A stretch of DNA of 64,000 bases from contig NZ_JAUSMX010000006.1 in NCBI RefSeq assembly GCF_030646115.1, positions 1 to 64,000 on the forward strand. Direction: 5' to 3'. Of this stretch, positions 25,659-49,588 are shown one piece after another (position 1 is the stretch's first letter; every line of letters starts with the position of its first letter). The stretch is from Fluviicoccus sp. GTDB lineage: Bacteria; Pseudomonadota; Gammaproteobacteria; Pseudomonadales; Moraxellaceae. The notes under the pieces are model-generated. The model was not told the DNA's origin and ran no database searches. It worked only from the letters and a program-made list of their open reading frames with translations. The position numbers and the translations under genes were made by a program.

Positions 25659-26327
25659 TTACTGGTAAAGCGGCTCGCGGATGGAGGCCACCCGTGCGGT
25701 CTGGAAACGCGGCTCGGCAATGACAGACTTCAGTGCTTTCAGCGAATTATAGGGGTGTTCCTGAATCAGCAGATTGACCAGGCTCGCCGGGAGGTTGCCG
25801 CCGGGATCGGCATGGCCGGTCATGGTGATCTCCACCTTCCCGTTGCCCACCGGCTTGAACAGCCAGCTGCCCTGGACCACCGGCATGTTCAGATTGCCGG
25901 TGCGGGGGGCATATCCGCCCACGGTATTGCTGTCAATGCGCACCACCATGGTCTGCGGGTCCTGGATGATGCGTCCGGCCACAACAGCCTCCCGATCCTT
26001 GAACGGCCAGGGAAAATCGGTCACGACACGGATCACGAATGACATGCTCTCGTCGTTGCGCTTCAGGGTTTCCACTTCACTGGTGCGATACAGCCAGCGG
26101 CTAGCGGCCTCGGTATCAGCAATCAGCCCGACGATGCTGTTGAGGTTGCTGCTGACGGTCGTCACCGCCTTGAAACCATGCAGGGGACTGCCGGGCACCT
26201 CATAGGACCAAACCCGGATACCGTCCTTGTTCAGAACCAGTTTCATGTCAGCAGGACGGCCGCCGGCATTCGCTGTGGCGCCAATCATCGTCAGCCAGAA
26301 CATCGTCAGCAGGGTCAACAGTTTCAT
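25659..26327 (-). CDS. Exported START-domain lipid-binding-like protein
   Basis: A protein of about 222 residues with a signal peptide (MKLLTLLTMFWLTMIGATA, cleavage near ANAGG) followed by one START/SRPBCC domain. START domains bind hydrophobic ligands in a helix-grip cavity; a periplasmic location is inferred from the signal. Motifs shared with the three paralogues at 42.8-45.3 kb are KDREAVV (DRD in the others) and the C-terminal HADPGGNLPASLVN followed by an amphipathic helix. The start at 26327 has GGAG upstream and places the signal peptide correctly. It is monocistronic, ending in the hairpin at 25610. The ligand is unknown. Confidence 0.85.
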   Translation of the reverse strand: MKLLTLLTMFWLTMIGATANAGGRPADMKLVLNKDGIRVWSYEVPGSPLHGFKAVTTVSSNLNSIVGLIADTEAASRWLYRTSEVETLKRNDESMSFVIRVVTDFPWPFKDREAVVAGRIIQDPQTMVVRIDSNTVGGYAPRTGNLNMPVVQGSWLFKPVGNGKVEITMTGHADPGGNLPASLVNLLIQEHPYNSLKALKSVIAEPRFQTARVASIREPLYQ

Positions 26328-26459
26328 GAGGAAAGCTCCCGTACCGGTCAGCACGTTTTTCATCCAATTAAAGGCAGGCCGATATTAGAGGTACTCCCGT
26401 ACAAAAAACAGTGTCATTTGTCAGTTGGGCAGCTACGAGTGTATACAAATTGTTTAGCG

Positions 26460-27047
26460 TCAGACCAAACCCAGCGCTTTCAGCTTGAGGATGGCCTGGG
26501 TGCGGTCCCGTACTTCCAGCTTTTCCAGAATCATGGACAGGTAGTTGCGAACCGTACCGGCGCTGAGTTGCAGCGCCAAGGCGATTTCCTTGTTCTGCTT
26601 GCCGGCGCACAACTCCCGGATAACCGCCAGCTCGCGACGAGTAAACAAAGCCGGCTGCCGTCCGCCCGCCGGCTCCACCTCGCCCCCGGCCGCAACGGTA
26701 CGAATCACGGCAACCAAGCCCGCCTGATCGATGTCCTTGAGCAGGCAGGCTTGCGCTCCGGCCGATCGGCCCTGCGCCAGCGTCACCGGCTCGTCAAAGG
26801 TGGTCAGCAACACCACCGGCGTCTCCAGCCCGCAGCAACGCATCTGCCGCACGGCTTCAAGACCATTCATGCGCGGCATGCGGATATCCATCAGCACCAC
26901 ATCCACAGGCAGCCCGGGTAACAGGGCCAGGCATTCTTCCCCGTCGGAGGCCTGGCCCACCACATCAATATCGGCTTCGAAGCCCAGCAAGGCGACAATG
27001 CCCCGCCGCACCAAGGCTTGGTCGTCCACCACCAGCACGCGGATCAT
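26460..27047 (-). CDS. NarL/FixJ-type response regulator
   Basis: A 195-residue DNA-binding response regulator. The receiver domain has VVDDQ, the phospho-accepting aspartate in LMDIRMPRMNG, and LTTF. The C-terminal LuxR-type helix-turn-helix is GKQNKEIALALQLSAGTVRN. The ATG at 27047 overlaps the kinase stop codon as ATGA, with GAGGAG eight bases upstream, so it is translated in tandem with its kinase. The pair resembles DesK/DesR or NarX/NarL-like systems. The target genes are unknown. A lone regulon clue is the adjacency to folate genes and to a START protein. Confidence 0.92.
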   Translation of the reverse strand: MIRVLVVDDQALVRRGIVALLGFEADIDVVGQASDGEECLALLPGLPVDVVLMDIRMPRMNGLEAVRQMRCCGLETPVVLLTTFDEPVTLAQGRSAGAQACLLKDIDQAGLVAVIRTVAAGGEVEPAGGRQPALFTRRELAVIRELCAGKQNKEIALALQLSAGTVRNYLSMILEKLEVRDRTQAILKLKALGLV

Positions 27048-28210
27048 GTCAGGCACTCCTCGGGAAATTCAGCCACCAGCCGGAATCCTTCACCGGTCGG
27101 GCCGGCCTGTAAATGGCCGCCCAGCTCGGCTACCCGCTCTTCCAGGCCACCCAGCCCGAGACCAGAACCGAACTCAGCCAGGCGCACCATCCGGCCGTTA
27201 TCCTGCACTTCCATACGGATGCCGCCGTGGTCATCGCGCCGCAGGATCACCCGCATCCGGCTGGCATCACTGTGCTTCAGGGCATTGGTGATCGCCTCCT
27301 GTACCACCCGCAGCAGGCAGGAAGCCAGTTGCGCATCCAGCATCAGCAGTTCGCTGTCGATTTCCACATCGTATTTGAGGTAGGGGATATTGGCCAGCAT
27401 CCGCTCCAGCAGCTCTCCAAAGTCGGACTGGTCCTGTCGAAGCTGCAGCAGCGTGGCGCGCACATCCTCAAACAGGTCACGGGCCAGATCGCGCGCCTGT
27501 CCCAGTTCGGGGAGTGCAGCATCGGGCAGCTTTTTTTCCAGCACCTGCAGCTGCATGGTCAGCGCTACCAGATGATGGCCCATCTGGTCGTGCAGGTCGC
27601 GGGCAATGCGGGTGCGCTCATTGCGGGCCACGGCCTCGGTCAGCAACTGTTGGGTGGCGTGCAACTGGGCATGGGCAGTGGCGGTTTCCTGATGCGCCTG
27701 CCATTCGTCGATATTGCTGGAAGCCATATACCACAGGGCGCTCTGCGCCAGCAGCAGGTAGATGGCGAAAGGAATGGGGGGCAGCGCCTGCTGCAGCACA
27801 GTCACCGCCAGTGAAGTAATCACGATCACCCCGATGGCCAGCGGCGCCGCGAAGCGGTTCATCAACGGCGCCATATTGACCATCAGGAAGACCAGAAAGA
27901 ACCCCTGGGTCGGCGTCAGGGATAGCCTGGCGGCCAGCGCACAGGCACTGCCGTAGGTAATCACCACCATGCCCCAGATCACCGGGTCACGGTTGTCGCG
28001 CTGCCAGCGCTTGGTGGTGACGAGAATCCAGAACAGGCGCACCAGCGCCATGGCCGGCCCGATCCCGCTCAGCGCCAGCAACAGCAGGGACGGACTGTCC
28101 TTCTGCTCCATCGCCGCCGTGCCCAGCTGCCAGACACCCAGCAGCCAGCCCAGCATCCCTAGCACAATGATCACCGGCTGGCGGCGCAGGAACGGGATGG
28201 CGTCATACAT
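27044..28210 (-). CDS. Sensor histidine kinase, HisKA_3 (NarX/DesK) type
   Basis: A 388-residue membrane kinase that pairs with the regulator at 26460. Five or six hydrophobic segments fill residues about 10-170 with little periplasmic sequence, which suggests sensing within the membrane, as in DesK. A coiled linker then leads to the HisKA_3 box RTRIARDLHDQMGHHL with the phospho-accepting histidine. The ATPase domain has EAITNALKHS and, after a short DNGRMV, a GSGLGLGGLEERV lid. The ATG at 28210 overlaps the end of folK by 8 bp; an upstream in-frame extension would run further into folK and is unlikely. Confidence 0.9.
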   Translation of the reverse strand: MYDAIPFLRRQPVIIVLGMLGWLLGVWQLGTAAMEQKDSPSLLLLALSGIGPAMALVRLFWILVTTKRWQRDNRDPVIWGMVVITYGSACALAARLSLTPTQGFFLVFLMVNMAPLMNRFAAPLAIGVIVITSLAVTVLQQALPPIPFAIYLLLAQSALWYMASSNIDEWQAHQETATAHAQLHATQQLLTEAVARNERTRIARDLHDQMGHHLVALTMQLQVLEKKLPDAALPELGQARDLARDLFEDVRATLLQLRQDQSDFGELLERMLANIPYLKYDVEIDSELLMLDAQLASCLLRVVQEAITNALKHSDASRMRVILRRDDHGGIRMEVQDNGRMVRLAEFGSGLGLGGLEERVAELGGHLQAGPTGEGFRLVAEFPEECLT

Positions 28211-28691
28211 GGCCTGTCTCCGCCAGCTCCACCCGGCGCAGCCGGTCGGAGGGGAGAAAGCCCCGCCAATGCTCAGCAAAGGTCAGGCCGGTCAGCGGAT
28301 GCCGCTCGCCACCCGCCAGATCGGATAACGGCTTGAGGACATAGGCCCTCTGCAGCAGTTCAGGACGCGGCAGCTCCAGCCCATCAAAATGACCGCAAAG
28401 GCCCTCATACAACAGGATATCGATATCAATCACCACTTCCGGACGCCCCCGCTCCCGCCCCAGTCCGGTCTCGATATCCCGCAACAGGACCCTCAACTCC
28501 GGCACCGGCAGCCGAGTATCCAGGTCCACCACCAGGTTCAGGTAGGGACCGCCCGGGGCGCCTTCCGCCTCGCTTTCATAAACCGGCGAACAGCGCAGAT
28601 CGGGAAACTCCCGCCGCAGCAGCGCCAGCGCTGACCGTAGCGAAGCCTCGCGCCGACAGTTACTGCCCAGGCTCAAATAGACGCGGGGCAT
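28203..28691 (-). CDS. folK: 6-hydroxymethyl-7,8-dihydropterin pyrophosphokinase
   Basis: Transfers pyrophosphate from ATP to 6-hydroxymethyl-dihydropterin in folate synthesis. The 162-residue protein begins YLSLGSNC, the family's ATP/pterin loop. It has SPVYESEA and the magnesium-binding DIDILLYE. The region before this reads RGRPEVVIDID, where most family members have RW-x-PR-x-LDLD, so it is a divergent variant. The ATG at 28691 has GAGG upstream and overlaps folB by 32 bp. The last 8 bp overlap the histidine kinase gene. Confidence 0.93.
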   Translation of the reverse strand: MPRVYLSLGSNCRREASLRSALALLRREFPDLRCSPVYESEAEGAPGGPYLNLVVDLDTRLPVPELRVLLRDIETGLGRERGRPEVVIDIDILLYEGLCGHFDGLELPRPELLQRAYVLKPLSDLAGGERHPLTGLTFAEHWRGFLPSDRLRRVELAETGHV

Positions 28692-36369: not shown

Positions 36370-37917
36370 ATGGGGCGACTGTTCCCGACATCGACGCTGA
36401 GCAAGGTCCGGGCCATTGGCGATCTGGGCTACGCCAACCCGTTTACCGGGGAACGCATCCGGCTGGAACGGCTGATCCTGGGCGACCATGCCCCGCTGCA
36501 CGACCTCTGGATCATGCAGCCGGGACAGCGGGAACCCAGCCCGCACCTGGCCGCGCTGACCCGGGCGGGTGAGGACTGCATCGCCGCCGCCCTGAGCCGG
36601 CTGAACACGCTGTCGAGCGTGGATGACGCCTCCTGGAAACTCTATGGCGACGTGGCGATGTACGTTCTCTATTACCGTGTCGAAAATGCCTTTTTCCAGA
36701 TACTGTCCACACCAGACGCCAACCCGGTGCGCATGCCGTTCTGGCCGGGCTTCCTGCGGGACTGGCGGCAACTGATCGGCCCCACGCCACTGGCGGATGA
36801 CCCGCAGTTCTCCCCGGAACATTTGTTCGCGCTGTGCTTCCAGATCCGCCGGGCATTCCACTTCACCTACCGCGCCATCTTCGGTACGACCCAGTTGTCC
36901 GCACAGTTAAGGGCTGATGTCTGGAACTCCATATTCACCCATGACCTGCGCCGCTACCGGCAGGGGCTGTTCCGGCGGATGCAGGAAATCTCGACACTGG
37001 TGCTGGGACCGTCGGGCACCGGCAAGGATCTGGTGGCGCAGGCCATCGGGCTGTCCCGCTATATTCCCTTCAACGCCGGCCAGCAACAGTTCGAAGCTGA
37101 TTATCATCATTGCCACCAGCCGGTTCATCTGGCCGCCCTGCCCGCCACCCTGCTGGAAAGTGAACTTTTCGGACATCGGAAAGGCGCTTACACAGGCGCC
37201 ATCAGTGATCGCAGCGGCTATCTGGAAACCCGGCATGCCTCGCAAACCGTCTTTCTGGACGAAATCGGGGAGCTGCCGCCGGAGATTCAGGTAAAATTGC
37301 TGAGGGTGTTGCAGAACCGCACTTTCCAGCGACTGGGCGACAGCAGCCCGCGAGAATTCCACGGCAAGATTGTCTCCGCCACCCATCAGGACTTGGGCGA
37401 GGCTATGGCTACCGGGCGCTTCCGCGAAGACCTCTACTACCGCTTATGCTCGGACATCATCCAGACGCCGTCACTGGCCATGCAGTTGCAACAGAAGCCG
37501 GAAGAACTGGAACACCTGCTGCAGACGGTCAGTCTGCGCCTGATGGGACCAGAGGCGGCTGACGCCCTGACCGCAGAGGCATCTGAGTGGATACGCACAC
37601 ACCTGCCTGCCCACACTTGGCCGGGCAACATGCGCGAGCTGGAGCAATGCGTACGCAGCATTCTGATTCGGGGCGCCTATAATCCGCCCAAGCGGCGGCA
37701 GGCCGCCAGGGACAGCGGCCCCAAGGCCGAACTGGCGGATATGATTCTGGCGGGCAGCCTGACGCAGACGGAGTTGACCAGCCGTTACTACGCGCTGGTC
37801 TATGCGCAAACCGGCAGTTATGAGGCAGCAGCCCGCAAGCTGGGCACCGACTGGCGGACCGTTAAGGCCAACCTGGACACTGACTTCCTCAGCGCGTTGA
37901 AACCGGGATCAGCTTGA
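36370..37917 (+). CDS. Sigma-54-dependent transcriptional activator with an unrecognised N-terminal domain
   Basis: A 515-residue enhancer-binding protein. The central AAA+ domain has Walker A GPSGTGKD near residue 215, the sigma-54 contact loop GAYTGA (the common form is GAFTGA), Walker B VFLDEIGEL, and the arginine-containing FREDLYYRL. The C terminus has a Fis-like helix-turn-helix (GSYEAAARKLGTDWRTVKAN). The first 190 residues are neither a receiver, GAF, PAS nor ACT domain that I recognise, so the signal is unknown. AAGGAG seven bases before the ATG at 36370 fixes the start. Its 3' end overlaps the convergent desaturase gene by 29 bp. Confidence 0.88.
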   Translation: MGRLFPTSTLSKVRAIGDLGYANPFTGERIRLERLILGDHAPLHDLWIMQPGQREPSPHLAALTRAGEDCIAAALSRLNTLSSVDDASWKLYGDVAMYVLYYRVENAFFQILSTPDANPVRMPFWPGFLRDWRQLIGPTPLADDPQFSPEHLFALCFQIRRAFHFTYRAIFGTTQLSAQLRADVWNSIFTHDLRRYRQGLFRRMQEISTLVLGPSGTGKDLVAQAIGLSRYIPFNAGQQQFEADYHHCHQPVHLAALPATLLESELFGHRKGAYTGAISDRSGYLETRHASQTVFLDEIGELPPEIQVKLLRVLQNRTFQRLGDSSPREFHGKIVSATHQDLGEAMATGRFREDLYYRLCSDIIQTPSLAMQLQQKPEELEHLLQTVSLRLMGPEAADALTAEASEWIRTHLPAHTWPGNMRELEQCVRSILIRGAYNPPKRRQAARDSGPKAELADMILAGSLTQTELTSRYYALVYAQTGSYEAAARKLGTDWRTVKANLDTDFLSALKPGSA

Positions 37918-38809
37918 CCGCTTTCCCATAACCCTCCGGGAAAACCTCGCGCCCGCCCATGGTCAGCAGCAAGGGACTTCGCGCCAGCAGCTCGTCCTTT
38001 TTCAACTCCCACAGGCGCTGGTAGCGATAGAACGGCACCAGCGGATACAGGTGATGCATCAAGTGGAAATTCTGGGATAACAGCAGCGGCGTCCAAAACC
38101 ATTCCTGACCCAGGCGGATGCCCGTCGCCTGATACGGATTTTCCGCATGCGTGGCGCGATAGGGCCAGTGCGGTATGTAGTCAAAGACAAAAGCCAGCAG
38201 CATGCAGGCAATGCGGCCGGGCACAAACCACAGCCAGAACAACCACTCCGCCCAGCCCTGCCACAACAGCACGCCAAAGAACAGCGCACCGGCCGCAATG
38301 GACCAGCACATCTCGACCACTTCAGCGCGACTGCGCGTGTTCAGCCGCTTCAAGTACCACAGGAAATACCAGCCGTCCATGCACACCCAGCGCAAGGGCA
38401 GCAGCCACTTCGAACCCTGCCCGGCCCAGTGATCGGGGTCGTGACCATCATGATCGTTGGCAAAGCGGTGATGCTGCATGTGAACATAACGGAAAGCACG
38501 GAACAGCGGCGCCGGGGCAAAAGCCATGATGCTGAAACGGCCCAGCACTTCGTTGACCGCACGTATGGAACTGATGGAGTTGTGCGAGGCCTCGTGAAAG
38601 ACCGAAAAGAACCAGAAGGCGGCGACTCCGCTCAGCAAAATACACACCGGCAGCGGCAGGACACCTGAGGTACCGGCGACAAAAGATGTCGTCCAAAGCA
38701 CCAGCGCCACGACAAAAAGCACCAGTGTCGGCCAGGCAAACATGGGACGCCGGTGGAGGGCTTGCCACTCATCGGATGTGACGGGCTTCACATTATCAGT
38801 TGCTTGCAT
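37889..38809 (-). CDS. Membrane fatty acid desaturase-family protein
   Basis: A 306-residue di-iron membrane oxygenase of the fatty acid desaturase/hydroxylase superfamily. The three histidine clusters are HEASHN, HMQHHRFAND and, near residue 240, HLMHHLYP. Several hydrophobic pairs (about 28-75 and 180-215) give four or more membrane helices. Length and histidine pattern fit acyl-lipid desaturases, but carotenoid-modifying relatives cannot be excluded. AGGGGG nine bases before the ATG at 38809 makes it a better start than the GTG at 38815. It is divergent from the AraC regulator at 38931, which is a natural candidate to control it. Confidence 0.85.
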   Translation of the reverse strand: MQATDNVKPVTSDEWQALHRRPMFAWPTLVLFVVALVLWTTSFVAGTSGVLPLPVCILLSGVAAFWFFSVFHEASHNSISSIRAVNEVLGRFSIMAFAPAPLFRAFRYVHMQHHRFANDHDGHDPDHWAGQGSKWLLPLRWVCMDGWYFLWYLKRLNTRSRAEVVEMCWSIAAGALFFGVLLWQGWAEWLFWLWFVPGRIACMLLAFVFDYIPHWPYRATHAENPYQATGIRLGQEWFWTPLLLSQNFHLMHHLYPLVPFYRYQRLWELKKDELLARSPLLLTMGGREVFPEGYGKAVKLIPVSTR

Positions 38810-38930
38810 AACCACTAACCCCCTGTTAAAAGTCTCCTTGCGGCGGCTGGATTATGAGCAGTCCCTGCATCCGAAAGAATAACCAAAACACCGCTTTCGC
38901 TGCGTATAACGCCGGAACTGGACGGATCAC

Positions 38931-39894: not shown

Positions 39895-40779
39895 TCAGGT
39901 CAATGCATCGCTTTCTGAATTCGCGGGGGTATCTCCCAGAAATGATGTGACCGCCTCCGCAACCGCATCGACATCACCATCCAGATGCAAATGATGCCCC
40001 CCAGGCAAACTGACACTGGTCAAATACCGGTGCGCCTGTAACCTAGCTTCATAATCCGGCCGGTTGAACGGCAATCCCTGTTCTGCCATGACCAGCAGGG
40101 TCGGCGTTTCAATGGCGGCCAGATACTGGCAAACCTGGGCCTCCGTCAGCCGGATCGGTGAGTCCAGCCGCAAACGGCGATCAGTGCGCCAGATATAGCC
40201 GCCTTCCACCGTCTCGACACCGCGCTCACAAAGTATCCGGGCAGCGGCCTCGCTGACCGGCACCAAGCCCTGCATGCGGGCGCGCACTGCCAGCGCCAGA
40301 TCTGCAATGACCCGGGGAGGCTTGTCAAAAGTCTGTTTTTGCAACAACGCGCCACGCAGGATGGCAGGAGCGGCCTCCGGGGTTCCGGTAAACGGCCCGA
40401 AACCCTCAATCAGCACCAGTTTTTCCAAGCGCTCCGGCAAGGCGGCGGCAAACAGGGTGGAGACGCCCGCCCCCATGGAGTGCCCCATCAGGGTGAATCG
40501 CGACCATCCGGCCAAGTCGGCTACGGCCAGCACATCGTCGACATGATCCACAAAGTGATAACGGATTCCCGGCGTCCGATGATCACTGAGACCATGCCCG
40601 GCAAAATCCATGGCTACGATATGATAGTCCGGCAGTAACGGCGCCAAACGGTCAAAGGTGGCGGCATTGTCCAGCCAGCCATGCAGGGCCAGCAGCGGCG
40701 GCAGGGCCGGATCATGCCAGCAGCGGGCGGCGATGGTCCGCCCCTGTATACTGAACTTACGCTCCAACGGCTCCGGCAT
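39895..40779 (-). CDS. Alpha/beta hydrolase
   Basis: A 294-residue cytoplasmic alpha/beta hydrolase. LHGWLDNAATFD forms the oxyanion loop, GHSMGAG carries the nucleophilic serine near residue 98, and the histidine is probably in LPGGHHLHLDGD near the end. It resembles MhpC/serine-hydrolase-like esterases, but no substrate can be given. It starts inside the stop codon of the SRPBCC gene (TAATG, one-base overlap), so it is the last gene of the operon that begins at 42624. Confidence 0.88.
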   Translation of the reverse strand: MPEPLERKFSIQGRTIAARCWHDPALPPLLALHGWLDNAATFDRLAPLLPDYHIVAMDFAGHGLSDHRTPGIRYHFVDHVDDVLAVADLAGWSRFTLMGHSMGAGVSTLFAAALPERLEKLVLIEGFGPFTGTPEAAPAILRGALLQKQTFDKPPRVIADLALAVRARMQGLVPVSEAAARILCERGVETVEGGYIWRTDRRLRLDSPIRLTEAQVCQYLAAIETPTLLVMAEQGLPFNRPDYEARLQAHRYLTSVSLPGGHHLHLDGDVDAVAEAVTSFLGDTPANSESDALT

Positions 40780-41213
40780 TACAACGACTTCCGCGCCAGC
40801 TTCTTCAGGCCCATTTTGATGCCTTGCGCCAGACCAACCTTCACCATCGGCCCCAGCAACGGCACCGCCCCACGGAAAACGATGGTGTAATGAAGCCGCG
40901 TTCCACCGTTATGCGGTTCAAAACGCATCACGCCCAAATGGTCATTGATGGGCGACATGGCGCTGGTGACTGTATATTCAATCCGTTCATCAGGGATATA
41001 CACCGTCACCGTTTCCTCCACCGGCGGCAGCGGGAACGCGGAGAGCTTGCGCACCGAACCGACCCCGTTCAGGTATTCCTGGCCGTCGCGGATGCGGGTG
41101 ACCTTGAACGGGAAAAAGATTTGCCCCAGGTTGTTGTGATCACCCAGCCAGTTGAAAATCTTGGCCACGGGCTGGGGGAAATCCTGAACAATGGAAATAT
41201 GCTGTAATTTCAT
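40779..41213 (-). CDS. SRPBCC-family protein
   Basis: A 144-residue protein with the START/Bet v 1-like helix-grip pattern of polyketide-cyclase/dehydrase-type SRPBCC proteins: FPQPVAKIFNWLGDHNN at the N terminus, LPPVEETVTVY in the sheet and TRLHYTIVFRG before the last helix. It has no signal peptide. The ATG overlaps the NfeD stop codon (ATGA). Members of this family bind small hydrophobic ligands; the role here is unknown. Confidence 0.8.
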   Translation of the reverse strand: MKLQHISIVQDFPQPVAKIFNWLGDHNNLGQIFFPFKVTRIRDGQEYLNGVGSVRKLSAFPLPPVEETVTVYIPDERIEYTVTSAMSPINDHLGVMRFEPHNGGTRLHYTIVFRGAVPLLGPMVKVGLAQGIKMGLKKLARKSL

Positions 41214-41662
41214 GGGGCCTCCTCAGGCTGCTTTTCGATGGTCAAAATCATCTCATGGACACCGGTCACCCGCACGTGGGCGCCGGCAGGCAACTCCTGG
41301 CTGCAGCTCACCTGCCACCAGCTATCGTCAATATTGATACGCCCCTGACCGTTGGTGACCGGCTCAACCAGCACCGACTTCCGGCCGATCAGGTGACGGG
41401 TGCGGTTGTTAAGGCTGCTGGCGGCATCATGCGGGCCGGGCCGGGCGCTACGGCGCAAGTTGTACCAGACCGCCAGCGCCAGGCAGCCGGCAGCGGCAAA
41501 GCAGATCCACTGCACATACAGATTGCCCACCAGCCAAGCCACTGCTGCTGTCGCAAAGGCGGCCGGGGCCAGACAGAGGAAGAAAAAGGTCCCGCTCAGC
41601 ATCTCAATGATCAGCAGCGCGAATCCAAACGCCAGCCACCACATCCAGGGTTCAGTCAGCAT
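41210..41662 (-). CDS. NfeD-like membrane protein
   Basis: A 150-residue short NfeD protein: three hydrophobic helices (about 5-70), then a C-terminal OB-fold domain with GRKSVLVEPVTNGQGRI and WWQVSCSQELPAGAHVRV. Short NfeD proteins are typically paired with an SPFH/band 7 protein, as here, with only 5 bp between the genes. The pair is thought to shape membrane microdomains. Confidence 0.93.
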   Translation of the reverse strand: MLTEPWMWWLAFGFALLIIEMLSGTFFFLCLAPAAFATAAVAWLVGNLYVQWICFAAAGCLALAVWYNLRRSARPGPHDAASSLNNRTRHLIGRKSVLVEPVTNGQGRINIDDSWWQVSCSQELPAGAHVRVTGVHEMILTIEKQPEEAP

Positions 41663-41667
41663 CAGGC

Positions 41668-42624
41668 TTACTCCCTGAACAACGGACCGGGCTGGCGGGC
41701 GGCGGGCGGCTGCGGCGCCTTGTTGTGCAAGTCTTTCAGCAAGTCGCTGATGCCACCCAGCGAGCCGATGACCGCAGACGCCTCCAGCGGCATCATCACC
41801 AGCTTGTTGTTGGGGCTGGCGGCAATGGCGCCCAGTGCATCTATATATTTCTGCGCCACGAAGTAGTTCACCGCATTCAGATCCCCGCGGGCAATGGCCT
41901 CGGAAACCACCAGCGTCGCCTGGGCTTCCGCCTGCGCCTGGCGCTCACGGGCTTCCGACTCCAGGAACACCGCCTCCTTGCGGCCTTCGGCCTTGAGGAT
42001 TTGCGCCTGCTTCTCGCCCTCGGCAATGAGGATTTCGGCTTGCCGCCGCCCTTCCGCTTCCAGAATCTGCGCGCGCTTGGTGCGTTCGGCCTTCATTTGC
42101 GAGGCCATGGCGTCAATCAGGTCGTGGGGCGGCGTAATATCCTTGATTTCCACCCGCGTGATCTTGATGCCCCAGGGATTGGTGGCCTGATCGATGGTGG
42201 TCAGCAACTGGGCGTTGATCTGGTCGCGCTGGGACAACATGCTGTCCAGCTCCATGGAGCCGATGACGGTGCGGATGTTGGTCATGGTCAGGTTGCGGAT
42301 GGCATATTCCAGGTTGCTGATTTCATAGGCCGCTTTGGCCGCATTGATGACCTGGTAAAAACACACCGCATCAATGGTGACCATGGCGTTGTCACGGGAA
42401 ATCACTTGCTGCGGGGGGACATCCAATACCTGTTCCATCATATTCAGTCGGTGACCGATCCGGTCAAAAAACGGCATGATGAAATGCAGGCCGGGGGGCA
42501 GGGTCTTGGTGTAACGTCCGAAATTCTCCACCGTGCTTTCGTAACCCTGCGGCACCTGTTGCACCGCCTTGAACGCCAGCACCACCACAAAACCCACAAA
42601 AATCATGACTGCCAGACTACCCAT
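41668..42624 (-). CDS. SPFH/band 7 protein, paraslipin type (QmcA-like)
   Basis: A 318-residue membrane-anchored stomatin-like protein. One N-terminal helix ([15 protein letters not shown]) is followed by the band 7 domain ([19 protein letters not shown] to VEIKDITPP) and a long alanine/glutamate-rich coiled coil (about 175-240, with repeated [19 protein letters not shown]). Such proteins oligomerise into membrane rafts and pair with NfeD. It begins a four-gene overlapping operon. GGGAG precedes the ATG. Confidence 0.93.
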
Positions 42625-42749
42625 ATCCCACTCCCTTTAACCAGGCCAACCCCATGGTGGCAACCTCAACTGAATAATCGGGATAGAAGGCAGGGTCAAG
42701 CGTTATTTCGCTCTCCCACAGCTAGCAGGAATGGAAAACAGGTGGCAAG

Positions 42750-42769
42750 GGCGGGCCGGACAGCCCGCC
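42750..42769 (-). terminator. GC-rich hairpin after the first START gene
   Basis: GGCGGGC and GCCCGCC pair around a 6-nt loop just beyond the stop at 42779. TTTT occurs several bases further on the minus strand. A terminator role is likely but not certain. Confidence 0.45.
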
Positions 42770-42778
42770 GGACTGGAT

Positions 42779-43489
42779 TTACTCGGTGATGCTGAACAAC
42801 GGCGGGTCCGAGGCTTCGCTGTAATACGGCAACTGTACCATGCGTTGCAAACCCACCATGGACACATAAGGCGCACTGCGCTGGACAAAATTGATGGTCC
42901 AGGCGGGTATGGTTCCACCTGGATCAATATAGCCCTCCGCTTCCAGCCGGGTCTTGTCCTTGCCCACCGGGGTAAACTTGATGGTCATGTCCTGCGCCAG
43001 CACCCGGGTGAGGCCTTTTTGCGGCGGCATGAAATCCGGTGCTGCGCGCAGGCGATGCATCATGAAGCCTTTTTTGGCGGAATAAGGCTCAATGGAGACA
43101 TGCACCACGGAATCACGATCCGGCACGGTCAACGGGGCGTTATACACTTGGTAATAGTAATACTCGGTATTGGACACTTTTTTCAGCAGCCGCGACTCCT
43201 TGGTTTCCCAGAACCAGCGCTTGATGTTTTCCACATCGTAATGGACCCGCGCCACGGCATCCAGCGAGCCGTCAATCAAGACTTCCAGCTTGAAGGAACG
43301 GATGCGCTTTCCGTCTTCCTGCTTGGCCCAGGTCTTGATGTTACGGATATTGTCGGTGCGCACCAGATACCAGTCCTTGTATGACTTCTCCACCCGCATG
43401 TCCTTCAAGTCGTCATCGGCGGCCGATGAAACAGTGACTGTACAAGAGGCCGCCAGCAGCAACAGCAAAGCAATTTTTTTATGGTTCAT
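42779..43489 (-). CDS. Exported START-domain protein, tandem paralogue 1
   Basis: A 236-residue protein with a signal peptide (MNHKKIALLLLLAASCTVTV, cleavage near SSAADDD) and one START domain. The three tandem paralogues share DIRNIKTxxKQ-like and KRIRSFK motifs, a central EYYYY-x2-YNAP, DRDxxxH, and the C-terminal DPGG-x2-P-x-W-x-x-NFVQR followed by an amphipathic helix, and two of them (this one and 44625) end in ITE. Lipid binding in the periplasm is an inference from the fold and signal. The start at 43489 places the signal peptide correctly; the frame is open upstream without homology. Its own promoter is likely, given the 184-bp gap before it. Confidence 0.85.
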   Translation of the reverse strand: MNHKKIALLLLLAASCTVTVSSAADDDLKDMRVEKSYKDWYLVRTDNIRNIKTWAKQEDGKRIRSFKLEVLIDGSLDAVARVHYDVENIKRWFWETKESRLLKKVSNTEYYYYQVYNAPLTVPDRDSVVHVSIEPYSAKKGFMMHRLRAAPDFMPPQKGLTRVLAQDMTIKFTPVGKDKTRLEAEGYIDPGGTIPAWTINFVQRSAPYVSMVGLQRMVQLPYYSEASDPPLFSITE

Positions 43490-43635
43490 CAAGGGACTCC
43501 GCAAGGCTGCGGGACCTGCATCAAGGCAAGTCCTGTTTTCATTATTATTCGATGTACGACAGCACTCGCCGTACCGTTTCAGGCTAGCACAGACAATCGG
43601 GGATTGTCGAAAAAACGAGAGGGATGATGCGAAGG

Positions 43636-43663
43636 AGGCGAACCGGAATACGCCGGTTCGCCT
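43636..43663 (-). terminator. Perfect 11-bp hairpin after the second START gene
   Basis: AGGCGAACCGG (43636-43646) pairs with CCGGTTCGCCT (43653-43663) around a 6-nt loop, ten bases beyond the stop codon at 43674. There is no T tract, so it is either a rho-dependent or an mRNA-stabilising structure. Confidence 0.5.
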
Positions 43664-43673
43664 GTAGCAGGGC

Positions 43674-44378
43674 TTACTGGGCAAAGGTGAACGGGGAAGG
43701 TGCAGTGGGCTCGGTGTACATCGGCAATTTTGTCATGCGGGACAGACCAACCATAGACACATAGGGCGCACGGCGTTGTACGAAATTAATCGCCCACACC
43801 GGCGCCAGTCCGCCCGGATCAACATAACCTTCAAATTCCAGCAAGGTCTTGCCCCCGCCTTGCGGGGTGAACTTGACGTTCATTTCCTGCGCGGTGACCC
43901 GCACCAGACCCGGCACCATGGGAATGTAATCCGGAACCGCGCTGACCTTGAGCATCATGTGACCTTTGCGGGCGGTGTAAGGCTCAACGATGGCATGCAA
44001 CACTGCGTCACGGTCAGGCAAGGTTGCCGGGGCATTGTAACGGGCATAATAATAGTATTCCGTATTGGATACTTTTTTCAGCAGCTTCATTTCCTTGGTT
44101 TCATAAAACCACTTTTTATAGTTTTCGACATCAAAGTGAATGCGGGCCAGCGTTTCCAGCGAGGCCTCAAATTCCGCCTCCCCCTTGAACGAACGGATAC
44201 GCTTGCCGTCTTCCTGCTTGCCAAAGGTCTTGATGTTGCGGATGGAGTCGTTACGTATCAGCTCCCAGTCCCCCTTGTCGCCACGTGTAGCGCGCAATTC
44301 GCGCAGATCGTCATCGGCCGCCAGGGCCGGTTGCACCAGAGCCGCCAGCAACCCAGCCGCCATTAATGTTTTTTTCAT
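43674..44378 (-). CDS. Exported START-domain protein, tandem paralogue 2
   Basis: A 234-residue secreted START protein with signal peptide MKKTLMAAGLLAALVQPALA before ADDDLRELR. It shares NTEYYYYARYNAP, DRDAVLHAIVEPYTARKG and DPGGLAPVWAINFVQRRAPY with its neighbours and ends FTFAQ. GAGGTG precedes the ATG. A 246-bp gap with a strong terminator separates it from the third paralogue, so each copy is probably transcribed alone. Different N-terminal sequences but closely similar domains suggest duplication followed by functional divergence. Confidence 0.87.
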   Translation of the reverse strand: MKKTLMAAGLLAALVQPALAADDDLRELRATRGDKGDWELIRNDSIRNIKTFGKQEDGKRIRSFKGEAEFEASLETLARIHFDVENYKKWFYETKEMKLLKKVSNTEYYYYARYNAPATLPDRDAVLHAIVEPYTARKGHMMLKVSAVPDYIPMVPGLVRVTAQEMNVKFTPQGGGKTLLEFEGYVDPGGLAPVWAINFVQRRAPYVSMVGLSRMTKLPMYTEPTAPSPFTFAQ

Positions 44379-44573
44379 GTTTCACCTCAGTTAAAGGCAC
44401 GGGATGTATCAATCGGGGGGGGCATTCTGCCCCATGCAAGACGTCTGTCCATGACCATGCGACGCGATTGATATGCGCCAGAGCCAACTCCCTGATCGTA
44501 AGGAATTAAATAGCCCGCCCTTTGCGGAAAATCAAGCCCGGCCATCTGATGCTGATGCCCGGTGAACCAATAT

Positions 44574-44605
44574 GGAAAAGGCCGGAACGAAGTCCGGCCT
44601 TTTCC
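44574..44605 (-). terminator. Intrinsic terminator after the third START gene
   Basis: GGAAAAGGCCGGA (44574-44586) pairs perfectly over 13 bp with TCCGGCCTTTTCC (44593-44605), loop ACGAAG, twenty bases after the stop at 44625. The rest of 44379-44573 shows no gene. Confidence 0.85.
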
Positions 44606-44624
44606 ATTGTAATAACATCAAATT

Positions 44625-45329
44625 TTATTCGGTGATTGCAAACGGTGAAGGGTCGCTGTCCCGGTACGAGGACATGCTGACCATGCGCTGCAGGCCGAGC
44701 ATGGTGCTGTAAGGGGCATTGCGCTGCACAAAGTTCATCGCCCAGCTTGGCACCATGCCGCCCGGATCCACAAAGCCTTCGGCTTCCAGATGCGTCTTGT
44801 CGCGGGAAACCGGCGTGAAGCGGATGGTGATGTCCTGAGCCTGGACACGCACCAGGTTCGGCTGCGGCGGCATGTAGTCCGGCACGGCATTGACCTTGAT
44901 TTCCATGAAGCCCTTTTTCGGGGTGTAGGGGTCAACCACGGCATGCAGGATGGCATCGCGGTCCGGAGTGGCCACCGGCGCATTGTAGGACATGTAGTAG
45001 TAGTATTCGCGATCAGACACTTTCTTCAGCATGTGGGAGTCCATGGTCTCCCAATACCAGCGCTTGATGTTGTCCACATCAAAGTGGACACGAGCCACTT
45101 TTTCCATGGAGCCGTCAATGGTGGCGTCGATCTTGAAATGAATGCGCTTGCCGTCTTCGGTTTGCTTGATGTACGTCTTGATGCTGCGGGAGGCATCGTT
45201 CTTGACCAGCTGCCACTCATTGCGGTTCGACTCGGAACGAATATCCTTCATGTCGTTATCGGCGGCAGCCGCCCATGGAGAGACAACGCCAACCGCGACA
45301 CCCAGCATTAACGTAGACAACAGTTTCAT
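44625..45329 (-). CDS. Exported START-domain protein, tandem paralogue 3
   Basis: A 234-residue START protein with signal peptide MKLLSTLMLGVAVGVVSPWA, cleavage near AAADND. It carries DREYYYYMSYNAP, DRDAILHAVVDPYTPKKGFM and DPGGMVPSWAMNFVQR and ends FAITE. GGGGG lies upstream of the chosen ATG at 45329; an in-frame start five codons earlier is possible. It is transcribed towards the other two paralogues and ends in its own terminator. The 234 bp between it and the GspE-like gene show nothing else. Confidence 0.86.
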   Translation of the reverse strand: MKLLSTLMLGVAVGVVSPWAAAADNDMKDIRSESNRNEWQLVKNDASRSIKTYIKQTEDGKRIHFKIDATIDGSMEKVARVHFDVDNIKRWYWETMDSHMLKKVSDREYYYYMSYNAPVATPDRDAILHAVVDPYTPKKGFMEIKVNAVPDYMPPQPNLVRVQAQDITIRFTPVSRDKTHLEAEGFVDPGGMVPSWAMNFVQRNAPYSTMLGLQRMVSMSSYRDSDPSPFAITE

Positions 45330-45563
45330 GACAACCCCCAGCACCCGTGGTGCAATCCGTACAGTTCACCCCGAAAGCCAGCTCCAGCCGGCGCGCCGGT
45401 CGCAAAAAATCTCGGACCGGACTCAAGTATCATAGTCATCCGGACTGTGCAAACCGAGATGCGATTCACAATCGGTCAGAGCAGCGACGGGATGCCGCTT
45501 TTTCGGGACAAACGGCTTATCAGGGCGTCAGGCAGGCTGACGTCCCGCAAACACGGACTCCCG

Positions 45564-47339
45564 TCAAGACAACGGCGCGACCCGCAATATCTCCTCAATG
45601 GTGGTCTGCCCCGCCGCCACCTTCTGCGCCCCCGCGATCCGCAACGGCAGCATTCCTTCGCGCCAGGCCTGATTCTTCAGATCGGCCAGCGAAACATTCT
45701 CGGCAATCTTTTTCTTGAGATCGTTGGATAACAGCATGATCTCATAGAGGCCCAGCCGTCCAAGGTAACCCGTATCCCGACACTCCAGACAGCCTTTGGG
45801 GCTGAAAATCCTTTCCGGCATGGGGGCTTTCCAGGGGTTGGTCAATTCCTGCCAAGCCTGCGTGTCACAAGGAATTTCCACCTTGCAATGCGGGCAGAGC
45901 GTGCGCACCAGACGCTGCGCCATGACGCCCAGCACGGTAGCTGAGATGAGGAAGGGCGGCACGCCCAAATCAATCAGGCGGGTGACGGAGGACGGAGCAT
46001 CGTTAGTGTGCAGCGTCGACAACACCAGGTGACCGGTGAGCGCCGCCTGGATGGCCATGTCCGCCGTTTCATAATCCCGGACTTCACCCACCATGATAAT
46101 GTCAGGGTCCTGGCGCATCAGGGCGCGGATACCCTCGGCAAAACTGAGGTCAATGCCGTGATGCACCTGCATCTGGTTGAAGCTGGGCTCCACCATTTCA
46201 ATCGGGTCTTCGATGGTGCAGACATTGACTTCGTCGGTGGCCAGTTGTTTCAGGGTGGAATAGAGGGTGGTGGTTTTGCCGGAGCCGGTGGGGCCGGTCA
46301 CCAGGATGATGCCGTTGGGCTCCTGCACCATCTTTTGCCATTTATCATAATCGCTGCCGGTCAGCCCCAGCTCCTTGAAGCCGCGCACCAGCACATCCGG
46401 ATCAAAAATCCGCATCACCAGTTTTTCACCGAATGCGGTGGGCAGGGTGGAAAGCCGCAACTCAATTTCAAAACCCTTGGTATTGCGGGTTTTCAACCGC
46501 CCGTCCTGCGGCTTGCGTTTTTCCGCCACATTCATGCGCCCCAGAATCTTGATCCGGGACACCACCGCGTTCATCACCTGGGTAGGGAATTCGTAAATAT
46601 TGTGCAACACGCCGTCAATACGGAACCGCACCCTGCCCCGTTCGCGGCGTGGCTCCAGATGGATGTCGCTGGCGCGCTGGTCAAAGGCGTATTGCAGCAG
46701 CCAGTCCACGATATTGACAATATGCTGGTCATTGGCGTCGGGAGACTGAAGATTGCCCAACTCCAGCAATTGCTCAAAATTGCCGATGGAGCCGGAACCG
46801 GCGCTGACTGAATCGCTGTTGCCGGCGCCCTCAATGGCGCGGGCCAGCTTGTAGAACTCGATGGAGTACCTATGCAGATGCGCCGGATTGGTCACCACCC
46901 GCTTCAGCGACTTGCCCTTGAGTGTGTGCTGGAGGTTTTCCTCCCATTCACTGTGAAAAGGCTGAGCGCTGGCAATCACTACCTCGTCCCGAAGTACCTG
47001 AACGGCCAAGATGCCGTGGCGCTCTGCGAAGGCATAACTCATCACCTCGGTCACTTCGGCAGCGTTGATTTTCAGAGGGTCGATGTGGAACAGCGGCTGA
47101 CCGGCCTTTTCCGCCAGCCATGCCGTCAGGACATCGAGATCCAGTTTGGCCTCGGGCTTTTTGATATCCACAAATCCGAACTGGGCGATCATCTGCAACG
47201 GGTGCCAATGCAGCTTGTCGCGGGTTCGGGCAGTAGTTGCCACCAGATTGGCATCACGCTGGCTGATTCGGCCGTCCTTGAGCAACTCGTCCAGGCACCA
47301 GCGGGTATCAACACGGAAAGAAAAGGCGGTTTTTTTCAT
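45564..47339 (-). CDS. GspE/PilB-type secretion or pilus ATPase, orphan
   Basis: A 591-residue AAA+ ATPase of the type II secretion/type IV pilus superfamily. The N-terminal part (about 10-110: CLDELLKDGRISQRD, then HPLQMIAQFGFVD) resembles the GspE/MshE N domain, known in some members to bind c-di-GMP. The ATPase domain has SDIHLEPRRERGRVRFRIDG, Walker A GPTGSGKTTT near 350, the Asp box and Walker B IIMVGEVRD near 418. The C-terminal zinc motif is CPHC...CLEC. No pilin, platform or secretin gene is nearby, so the partner machinery is elsewhere. The ATG at 47339 matches the family start; the frame is open upstream. It is divergent from the c-di-GMP enzyme at 47558. Confidence 0.9.
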   Translation of the reverse strand: MKKTAFSFRVDTRWCLDELLKDGRISQRDANLVATTARTRDKLHWHPLQMIAQFGFVDIKKPEAKLDLDVLTAWLAEKAGQPLFHIDPLKINAAEVTEVMSYAFAERHGILAVQVLRDEVVIASAQPFHSEWEENLQHTLKGKSLKRVVTNPAHLHRYSIEFYKLARAIEGAGNSDSVSAGSGSIGNFEQLLELGNLQSPDANDQHIVNIVDWLLQYAFDQRASDIHLEPRRERGRVRFRIDGVLHNIYEFPTQVMNAVVSRIKILGRMNVAEKRKPQDGRLKTRNTKGFEIELRLSTLPTAFGEKLVMRIFDPDVLVRGFKELGLTGSDYDKWQKMVQEPNGIILVTGPTGSGKTTTLYSTLKQLATDEVNVCTIEDPIEMVEPSFNQMQVHHGIDLSFAEGIRALMRQDPDIIMVGEVRDYETADMAIQAALTGHLVLSTLHTNDAPSSVTRLIDLGVPPFLISATVLGVMAQRLVRTLCPHCKVEIPCDTQAWQELTNPWKAPMPERIFSPKGCLECRDTGYLGRLGLYEIMLLSNDLKKKIAENVSLADLKNQAWREGMLPLRIAGAQKVAAGQTTIEEILRVAPLS

Positions 47340-47557
47340 GATCGTTGTACAAGCCTCGGGATATGCTCCGGAATATAACGCCGGACGCGCCGCCACACGG
47401 TGATCCCGTCTGTCTTTATTTTGTGTTTTTCCTCTTTTTGGGATAGAAATACACCTGCAAGGATGCCTTGCCGGAAATTGACAGCAACCTCCGGACAATC
47501 CGAAAACAAGAACAGCAATCGGCATCGCCTGGCTGACACATCAGACTTTAACAGTGA

Positions 47558-49588
47558 ATGATCATGCGCCAATGGCTGGAATCCCTCCGCATCCCGAAAA
47601 AGCTCTGGCTTTTTCATCTGGTCACCGCCCTGACCTCGGGGCTGGTCGCCGCCGGCATCATGCTGCTGACGGTGTGGCATATTGCCCGGGGCAATGCGGA
47701 AGCCGATGCGGGCGTCAAGGCGGCGATCATTGCCGACAATATCCTGCCCTCCCTGCAGTTCCGCGACCCGGAGGTTGCCGCTGAAATCCTGAAGGGCCTG
47801 AGCCGGGACAAGAACGTGCTGGACGCCCGTGTCATTGAGGCGGACGGACAGGTGTTTGCGGAGTTCGTCCCGAACAACGCCGGCAGCCGTCTGCGCCAGT
47901 CAGGCAGCAATGTCATCCGCACCTCAATTCCGCTGCTGGACGAGCGGATCAACGTCGGCCGGGTGGAGCTGGTCACCAGCCTGGACAACGTCTACCGGGA
48001 AACCGGCTTTTATACGCTGGCCATTGCGGTCGCGATGCTGGTGTCACTGCTGGTCGGCAGCGGGTTGATGATGTTGCTGCAACGCTCCATTACTGTTCCG
48101 CTGACCAGGTTAACGCAATTAATGAAGCGGGTTTCCGAACGCAATGACTACACACAGCGGACCGAAGTCAGCACCAGTGACGAACTGGGTGAACTGGGGC
48201 TGAGCTTCAACCACATGCTGGAACAGATCCAGGAGCGGGATACGGCGCTGGGGCATGAACTGAACGAACGGCTGCGGGCCGAGGAACAACTGGCGCATCT
48301 GGCGCATCATGATCCGGTCACGGGCTTGCCCAACCGTCACTATTTCCGCAAGTGCACCCAGGAACTGGAGCGGGTCCAGGGGGCGTCCGGCAACCCGCCC
48401 GCCCTGCTCTTCATCGATCTCGACAACTTCAAATTCGTCAATGACAGCTTTGGCCATGACTGCGGCGACCAGTTGCTGACCATCGTTGCCGACCGACTGC
48501 TGAGCGCCGTGCGCTCCAATGACGAAGTGGTGCGCTTCGGGGGCGATGAGTTCGTGGTGCTGCTGCTGAATATCCGCGAAACCGCCATCGCCCTGCAACT
48601 GGCTGAAAAAATCCGGCTGGTGCTGACCCAGCCGCTGATGCTGAACAGCAAGGAGTTTGTCGTCACCTGCTCCATTGGCGTAGCGGTGGCGCCCATGCAC
48701 GGCCGCACCGCCGACGAACTGCTGCAAAATGCCGATGCCGCCATGTACCACGCCAAGAGCGGCGGCAAGAACGGGGTCAAGCTGTGGGAAAACGCCATGA
48801 CCGGCCAGTCCACCCTGCGCTTCTCCATGGAGTCCGACCTGCGTCACGCCATAGAACGCAATGAGCTGGAAATCCACTACCAGCCGATTGTGGAACTGTC
48901 CAACCGCCGGATGGTGGGTATGGAAGCCCTGCTGCGCTGGAAACACCCCGAACTCGGCTTCATCTCCCCGGTCGAATTCATCCCGGTCGCCGAGGACAGC
49001 GGCCTGATCCTGGGCATTGGCGAGTGGGTGATGCAGATGGCATTCCATCAGGTTGCGGAATGGTCACGCGAATACGGCCCGCTGTTCATTGCCGTCAATG
49101 TCTCGGCGCGGCAGTTCCGCAGCGCCGACTTTGTCACCCGCACCCGCGAGTTGGCCGTGATCAGCGGCCTGGCCCCGGACCAGATTGAACTGGAACTGAC
49201 CGAATCCATGGTGATGGGCCACACCGGCGAGGCGGTGCGGATCATGCAGGAACTGGTGGACAGCGGCTTCGGCCTGTCACTGGACGATTTCGGCACCGGC
49301 TATTCCTCGCTGTCCTACCTGAAGCGTTTTCCCCTCGACAAGCTGAAAATCGACCGCAGTTTTGTCAGCGACCTGCCGGATGATCCGGAAAGTGTCGCCA
49401 TCGCCAAGGCCATTGTCGGCCTGGCCGCCACGCTGGGCATGCGCGTGGTCGCCGAAGGCATCGAGACGCCCGAACAGGCCGACCTGCTGCTGGGGCAGGA
49501 ATGCCGTTACGGACAGGGGTATTTTTTCAGCCGGCCGCTGCCCGCCGACCGGCTTCCGGCGTTCATCCTCAGCAACCGGGCCGCATGA
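47558..49588 (+). CDS. Membrane GGDEF-EAL protein, apparently bifunctional in c-di-GMP turnover
   Basis: A 676-residue c-di-GMP enzyme. Two membrane helices (about 15-38 and 150-180) flank a periplasmic CHASE8-like sensor of about 110 residues. A HAMP domain (about 180-235) is followed by the cyclase domain with RFGGDEF near residue 327. RSND, five residues before it, is an intact product-inhibition I-site. The phosphodiesterase domain begins near 450 with EALLRW and keeps NVSARQF, ELTES, DDFGTGYSS, KIDRSF and EGIET, so all catalytic residues are present. Both activities are possible. The second ATG (47564) could also serve as the start. It is divergent from the GspE-like ATPase. Confidence 0.93.
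   Translation: MIMRQWLESLRIPKKLWLFHLVTALTSGLVAAGIMLLTVWHIARGNAEADAGVKAAIIADNILPSLQFRDPEVAAEILKGLSRDKNVLDARVIEADGQVFAEFVPNNAGSRLRQSGSNVIRTSIPLLDERINVGRVELVTSLDNVYRETGFYTLAIAVAMLVSLLVGSGLMMLLQRSITVPLTRLTQLMKRVSERNDYTQRTEVSTSDELGELGLSFNHMLEQIQERDTALGHELNERLRAEEQLAHLAHHDPVTGLPNRHYFRKCTQELERVQGASGNPPALLFIDLDNFKFVNDSFGHDCGDQLLTIVADRLLSAVRSNDEVVRFGGDEFVVLLLNIRETAIALQLAEKIRLVLTQPLMLNSKEFVVTCSIGVAVAPMHGRTADELLQNADAAMYHAKSGGKNGVKLWENAMTGQSTLRFSMESDLRHAIERNELEIHYQPIVELSNRRMVGMEALLRWKHPELGFISPVEFIPVAEDSGLILGIGEWVMQMAFHQVAEWSREYGPLFIAVNVSARQFRSADFVTRTRELAVISGLAPDQIELELTESMVMGHTGEAVRIMQELVDSGFGLSLDDFGTGYSSLSYLKRFPLDKLKIDRSFVSDLPDDPESVAIAKAIVGLAATLGMRVVAEGIETPEQADLLLGQECRYGQGYFFSRPLPADRLPAFILSNRAA

Follow-up and report, generated by a model that had tools for sequence, protein, structure and literature searches.

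An old radiation of about forty START-domain proteins with predicted export signals in a Moraxellaceae genome related to Agitococcus

Introduction

The eukaryotic START proteins PCTP/STARD2, STARD4, STARD5, STARD10 and CERT have a helix-grip fold with a lipid cavity, and models of two of the proteins considered here share the helix-grip fold; judging from the titles of solved structures, a single lipid occupies the cavity (ceramide in CERT, phosphatidylcholine in PCTP, myristate in the START domain of ACOT11). We know of no eukaryotic START protein that is secreted. A minimal bacterial START protein is that of Xanthomonas axonopodis (PDB entry 3qsz), which has in common with the proteins described below the fold and the core motifs RD, PDYLP, VR and PGG-x2-P-x-W-x2-N. 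We analysed a stretch of 64,000 nucleotides from a Fluviicoccus sp. genome (contig NZ_JAUSMX010000006.1, positions 1 to 64,000; 'the window'), in which three tandem START genes, A, B and C, and a diverged fourth copy, D, had been noted from the sequence (the original prediction). The four genes turned out to be members of a set of 40.

Such a number is larger than those quoted for multicellular eukaryotes: according to excerpts of two papers, mammals have 15 STARD proteins (PMC10942540) and japonica rice has 28 START genes (PMC8455945). Among Gram-negative bacteria, carriers of hydrophobic molecules in the envelope are described, again in an excerpt (PMC10942540), for Methylococcus; these proteins, BstA, BstB and BstC, differ from the START proteins in having other folds (BstB resembles PhnD) and sterol ligands.

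The START genes of the window are the following.

44625..45344, minus strand: START paralogue A with a predicted signal peptide; Pfam START; orthologues in Agitococcus lubricus (G004, contig C32) and Agitococcus sp. (G019, contig C43)
43674..44378, minus strand: START paralogue B with a predicted signal peptide; no supported orthologue in these two Agitococcus genomes
42779..43489, minus strand: START paralogue C with a predicted signal peptide; ATG start; AlphaFold model, Pfam START
25659..26363, minus strand: START paralogue D; member of an older, separate subfamily; adjoins a DesK-like two-component system

The triplet is transcribed in the order A-B-C. Gene A starts with GTG, an ATG at 45329 being an equally possible start; the longest open reading frame (ORF) of gene C extends to 43684, beyond the ATG start at 43489.

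Copy number of START genes

The source genome (3.89 Mb in 39 contigs, 97.7% complete) belongs to Moraxellaceae and is related to Agitococcus. The Pfam START model had 18 matches in it, 15 of them above the cut-off, while a profile built from 21 of the genome's own copies had 40 matches among the 49 candidates scored; thus Pfam undercounts START genes here. ORFs were recovered for all 40 copies, with open frames and longest ORFs of 211-301 amino acids. The same profile produced 28 matches in A. lubricus and 30 in Agitococcus sp., each count including two fragments of a single split gene. Two further, incomplete Agitococcus genomes, with completeness of 74 and 88%, had 23 and 12 matches, and three genomes from other genera had 5, 6 and 4.

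In wider sets START genes were scarce. A 17-row profile had matches in 89 of 199 genomes of the family, our genome included, with a maximum of six outside its genus and Agitococcus (best 14 candidates per genome). By Pfam, START was present in 20 of 369 gammaproteobacterial genomes and in 28 of 398 genomes sampled across the phylum, our genome being included in both samples with its best eight and best seven candidates scored, respectively; no other genome had more than four in the class sample or more than two in the phylum sample. The expectation that most bacteria have few START genes was therefore borne out, and about 40 START proteins with export signals are out of the ordinary in comparison with all the genome sets that we sampled. 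Searches of the open-licence literature of PubMed Central listed no description of such an expansion. A search of a plasmid collection returned 11 records, every one below 60% identity.

The original picture of a triplet and one diverged copy was correct as to the genes and incomplete as to the family, only four of whose 40 copies it contained. Taken individually, these proteins are ordinary START domains; what stands out is a radiation that has produced forty of them, export signals included.

Related START proteins, at 25-31% identity to the family, were also seen in metagenome-assembled genomes of Bacteroidetes/Bacteroidales (L045-L059), three of the assemblies having two loci each; by eye, the N termini of these proteins resemble signal peptides.

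Evolutionary history

In a quickly built tree with 116 rows drawn from nine genomes, 84 rows formed one group with 99% support in the Shimodaira-Hasegawa-like approximate likelihood ratio test: 36 of our copies, 26 from Agitococcus sp. and 22 from A. lubricus. For a careful tree, rooted with six outgroup rows, three expansion-clade rows of 200 amino acids or less were removed, leaving 81; a branch with 100/99 support separated these from the outgroup. Three Agitococcus pieces of 150 amino acids or less had been dropped beforehand, and the copies from genomes G030 and G061 were left out of both trees. Sampled genomes of the phylum other than ours have none to two START matches by Pfam; 36 of the 40 copies here constitute a separate radiation. 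In the scan of 199 family genomes, the listed matches from our genus and Agitococcus that belong to this radiation scored at least 253 bits, and matches from other genera at most 181 bits. Of the four copies outside the 36-copy clade, D among them, three group with Agitococcus copies and one with a copy from the relative G012 only.

Eleven strongly supported orthologue groups unite our copies with those of Agitococcus. A groups with G004_C32_5335 and G019_C43_435448 at 100/98 support, while C forms a twelfth, less certain group (96/78) with one A. lubricus copy and two from Agitococcus sp.; B could not be placed in the careful tree. The 36 copies are 26-63% identical to each other (median 41, 630 pairs).

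A phylogeny had been proposed as a check for recent duplication of the triplet. In the approximately unbiased (AU) test, forcing A, B and C, a group named by the original prediction ahead of the tree, into one clade cost 40 log units (p-AU 0.003). Since the test spoke against a single clade and the tree puts A and C together with copies from Agitococcus, we reject a recent tandem duplication. A and C predate the split of the two genera, and D is a member of a different, older subfamily. We characterized the expansion as an old, retained family, whose radiation goes back to an ancestor common to our genus and Agitococcus and which has been kept and diversified since.

One START gene, split in two frames (L101 6716-7379 and L090 237-900), is near-identical in the two Agitococcus genomes, with branch lengths of 0 and 0.007, though other START orthologues of these genomes differ clearly. 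Recent exchange could be a possible explanation.

Fold and export signals

Structure prediction, which had been suggested for all four copies, was run on C and D and gave START folds for both, with AlphaFold mean pLDDT (predicted local distance difference test) values of 89.9 and 85.2. In a VIA-align 2 search the best PDB match to C was Xanthomonas 3qsz (Z 23.9, root-mean-square deviation 1.8 over 179 residues, 27% identity), with StarD4 (Z 20.4), StarD5, ceramide-bound CERT (2e3r, Z 19.7) and StAR coming next, and the myristate-bound START domain of ACOT11 (6vvq, Z 18.1), PCTP (1ln1, Z 17.3) and MLN64 also among the matches. Of the 50 PDB entries listed, the top 38 were all START proteins; seven of these were entries for the silkworm carotenoid-binding protein, which we take to be a START protein. 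The best Foldseek match to D was again 3qsz (E-value 2.4e-16), and a PDB sequence search with a profile of 17 of the genome's own paralogues produced 3qsz (E-value 9.6e-26), STARD10 and PCTP.

The folds of C and D settled the family assignment. Pfam START (PF01852, cut-off 22 bits) had placed C (27.7) and B (23.0) above and A (21.4) and D (20.5) slightly below its threshold. A is 52, 57 and 25% identical to B, C and D, respectively, with A, B and C 52-58% identical among themselves. The motifs noted as shared by the tandem copies fell into two kinds. EYYYY is present in A, B and C; in the 81-row family alignment, on the other hand, the last two residues of DRD never vary and DPGG-x2-P-x-W hardly does, and RD and PGG-x2-P-x-W occur in Xanthomonas 3qsz as well, so that they mark the START domain rather than the triplet.

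Signal peptides were called by a home-made rule, on which predicted export of these proteins rests. All four window copies pass the rule, as do 32 of the 40 copies genome-wide; the other eight also have a hydrophobic N-terminal segment, and what keeps them from passing is the positive charge, the cleavage motif, the hydrophobicity or a charge within the segment. A loose lipobox pattern matched two of the 40, C and one other, and C also has AxA-type sites. Thus, three tandem START genes with export signals were confirmed by coordinates, Pfam, the folds of C and D and the signal-peptide rule, as was the diverged copy at 25659.

Genomic neighbourhood

The genes around the triplet and D are the following.

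39895..40779, minus strand: alpha/beta hydrolase; in the two Agitococcus genomes, SRPBCC is likewise followed by a gene resembling it
40779..41213, minus strand: SRPBCC (Polyketide_cyc2) protein; conserved neighbour
41210..41662, minus strand: NfeD-like protein; conserved neighbour
41668..42624, minus strand: SPFH/Band 7 protein; conserved neighbour
45564..47525, minus strand: T2SSE-type secretion/pilus ATPase; in G012, 36 bp from the SPFH gene with no START gene in the gap
26460..28279, minus strand: LuxR-type response regulator and DesK-like histidine kinase; adjoin D

In both A. lubricus and Agitococcus sp., orthologues of A and C are followed by SPFH, NfeD, SRPBCC and alpha/beta hydrolase genes, as in the window; on the opposite side, genes for an ABC ATPase and a permease of the FtsX type flank the same START genes. 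In G012 a 36-bp gap separates the gene for the T2SSE-type ATPase (81% identity across 487 residues) from that for SPFH (72%); NfeD and SRPBCC come after SPFH, and this locus (L130 483-3879) has no START match. As the flanking genes are kept there without START, either the START genes entered a pre-existing neighbourhood or G012 lost them. A search with the SPFH protein (E-value 1e-60) placed it in three of nine genomes; besides G012, two relatives with an SPFH gene have no START gene in the 3.9 kb seen. The association of START with SPFH/NfeD, to which the original prediction drew attention, is thus kept in two Agitococcus genomes and limited to this locus, since 33 of the 36 expansion-clade copies of our genome sit elsewhere.

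In G012 and in the window (40779-47525) alike, a pilus/secretion ATPase shares its neighbourhood with membrane-organiser genes. The window also contains, at 37889-38815, one of the genome's 15 genes of the fatty-acid desaturase/AlkB family, the top count among 58 genomes searched, ours included.

The best solved relative of the histidine kinase beside D is DesK. In A. lubricus, too, such a pair (L089 5667-7414) lies next to the orthologue of D, whose group has a support of 89; possibly, the pair is a membrane-state sensor controlling D as a lipid carrier.

We looked for a theme common to the neighbours of all copies. Pfam families of genes within two genes of a START gene (112) and of genes five or more away (112 of 204) hardly differed; among the 25 commonest families listed, counts were six near and three far for TetR and six and two for Pyr_redox_2. 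Of the 15 FA_desaturase/AlkB genes, two have an expansion-clade START gene at a distance of no more than two genes. A common theme was rejected.

Each gene of the triplet was said to end in its own hairpin. The hairpins, all on the minus strand, are these.

44572..44607, minus strand: hairpin 3' of A; z -5.0; U-rich 3' arm
43636..43663, minus strand: hairpin 3' of B; z -4.4; no U tract
42750..42769, minus strand: hairpin 3' of C; weak, z -1.8; no U tract

Those after A and B are clear, while the fold of the one after C is equalled by 11 of 200 shuffled sequences. As only the stem of A has a U-rich run, an 'own terminator' is supported for A at most. A terminator consensus scan recovered none of the three and reported one site elsewhere, with 3.5 expected by chance; an Rfam search of positions 40000-48000 gave zero matches.

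Function and alternative explanations

Export signals, together with a nearest named relative, A. lubricus, that uses Tweens for growth and carries alkB (both stated in an excerpt of PMC7012980, whose reference list has 'lipolytic' in the title of the first description of the species), make periplasmic carriers of diverse hydrophobic substrates the best reading of this radiated set, one to which we give about an even chance. Each protein would sit in the periplasm as a helix-grip carrier with one hydrophobic molecule per cavity, and would shuttle it among the outer membrane, the inner membrane and enzymes of the envelope. The likeliest cargo would be the hydrophobic compounds that these bacteria grow on and the first products made from them (fatty acids, alkanes, long-chain alcohols and esters), with copies tuned to different ligands or placed under different regulators. 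The functions of the copies may well differ among themselves.

Several neighbours are of the kind such carriers could serve. Our five-gene START array (contig C5, 188460-192497) comes after an acyl-CoA dehydrogenase gene, and a similar gene is on the same side of a six-gene array in Agitococcus sp. and of a five-gene array, interrupted by one long ORF, in A. lubricus. In Agitococcus sp. a gene for the alkane 1-monooxygenase AlkB (8f6t, E-value 5e-159) lies ~220 bp before a START gene. Flavin monooxygenases (PF00743) are encoded at most three genes from START genes in our genome and adjoin a START pair in Agitococcus sp. In eight strands one face is more hydrophobic (mean +1.35 versus -1.50, the faces being picked by that same measure), and presumed inward positions set the orthologue groups apart more strongly than outward ones do (within-minus-between identity 0.305 versus 0.196, Mann-Whitney p 0.012; within-group identity 0.72 and 0.70); among the positions picked out by this comparison are 55, 57, 114, 116, 127, 166 and 180. 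This would fit diverged ligand-facing residues; it is suggestive only, because 'inward' denotes the parity with the more hydrophobic residues of each strand rather than a position taken from coordinates, and alignment columns are not independent.

A number of observations weigh against this assignment. Enrichment of lipid-catabolism genes near START genes over those far from them was weak overall (15/113 versus 21/257, p 0.09, in our genome; 7/60 versus 8/97, p 0.33, in A. lubricus; 12/54 versus 7/89, p 0.015, in Agitococcus sp.); moreover, as most seeds of this test were drawn from START neighbourhoods, enrichment is inflated and partly circular. Several copies sit amid housekeeping genes (FtsH, LipB and HemE, named by eye from sequence starts). 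Copy numbers of START and FA_desaturase/AlkB genes appear unrelated by eye across the 58 genomes, with G012, G016 and G028 having 13, 10 and 10 of the latter and three, one and two START genes by Pfam. The SPFH, NfeD and SRPBCC genes beside the triplet point to membrane upkeep more than to feeding.

Envelope-lipid homeostasis is the main rival, tentative in itself, and it suits the triplet's own neighbours better than does substrate uptake. Phospholipids or other envelope lipids would be ferried between the membranes, with copies per lipid species or stress. Such a role would be like that of MlaC-type periplasmic phospholipid carriers, whose fold and gene context differ from those of the START proteins here. 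The presence of SPFH, NfeD and SRPBCC genes next to A and C in three genomes, the ABC ATPase and FtsX-type permease across from them in Agitococcus, the DesK-like pair beside D, also in A. lubricus, and PCTP among the fold matches of C are all in line with it. However, the START-free locus of G012 and the START-free surroundings of two other relatives' SPFH genes argue against this role, as do the 349 of 369 sampled Gammaproteobacteria with no START match by Pfam (which undercounts), and the number of copies is left unexplained.

That the proteins act as buffers or sensors we consider improbable; instead of shuttling nutrients, they would bind up hydrophobic toxins or signals within the periplasm or hand them to regulators. 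TetR genes are somewhat commoner near START genes in our genome (6/113 versus 4/257, p 0.049), as are TetR and AraC genes in A. lubricus (4/60 versus 0/97, p 0.02), these p values being uncorrected for many tests and the seeds coming partly from START neighbours; the ORFs, on the other hand, are too short at 211-301 amino acids for a fused signalling domain.

Still less probable is amplification without specialisation, through near-neutral duplicates or dosage. Certain pairs confined to one genus, for example two adjacent copies on contig C15, and the split copies in both Agitococcus genomes are what one would expect from it, but identities within the expansion clade of merely 26-63%, frames open in every copy, and the eleven strong orthologue groups, with that of C, spanning both genera all speak against it.

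Home-made hopanoids or sterols, a ligand idea raised by the original prediction, are very unlikely, since no match to squalene-hopene/oxidosqualene cyclase (PF13249) was found in this 97.7% complete genome, in spite of StAR, StarD4 and MLN64 among the fold matches of C and of a GMC oxidase gene adjoining one START gene, with cholesterol oxidase as its best NCBIfam match (498 bits, model cut-off 850); external sterols are a separate case.

Returning to periplasmic carriers of hydrophobic substrates, one could speculate further that dozens of ligand-tuned START shuttles form a soluble layer bringing hydrophobic nutrients from the outer membrane, where they enter, to AlkB-like enzymes of the inner membrane, one substrate per copy; we regard this more specific picture as possible rather than probable. 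Such shuttles would be comparable to solute-binding proteins, which serve soluble nutrients. The passage of water-insoluble molecules through the periplasm is poorly known. The role of active transport in alkane uptake was considered unclear in an excerpt of a 2013 review (PMC3664771). A bacterium whose START copy number exceeds the figures quoted for mammals and rice, with about forty diverged proteins and one Agitococcus member beside AlkB, offers a tractable set for testing soluble carriers.

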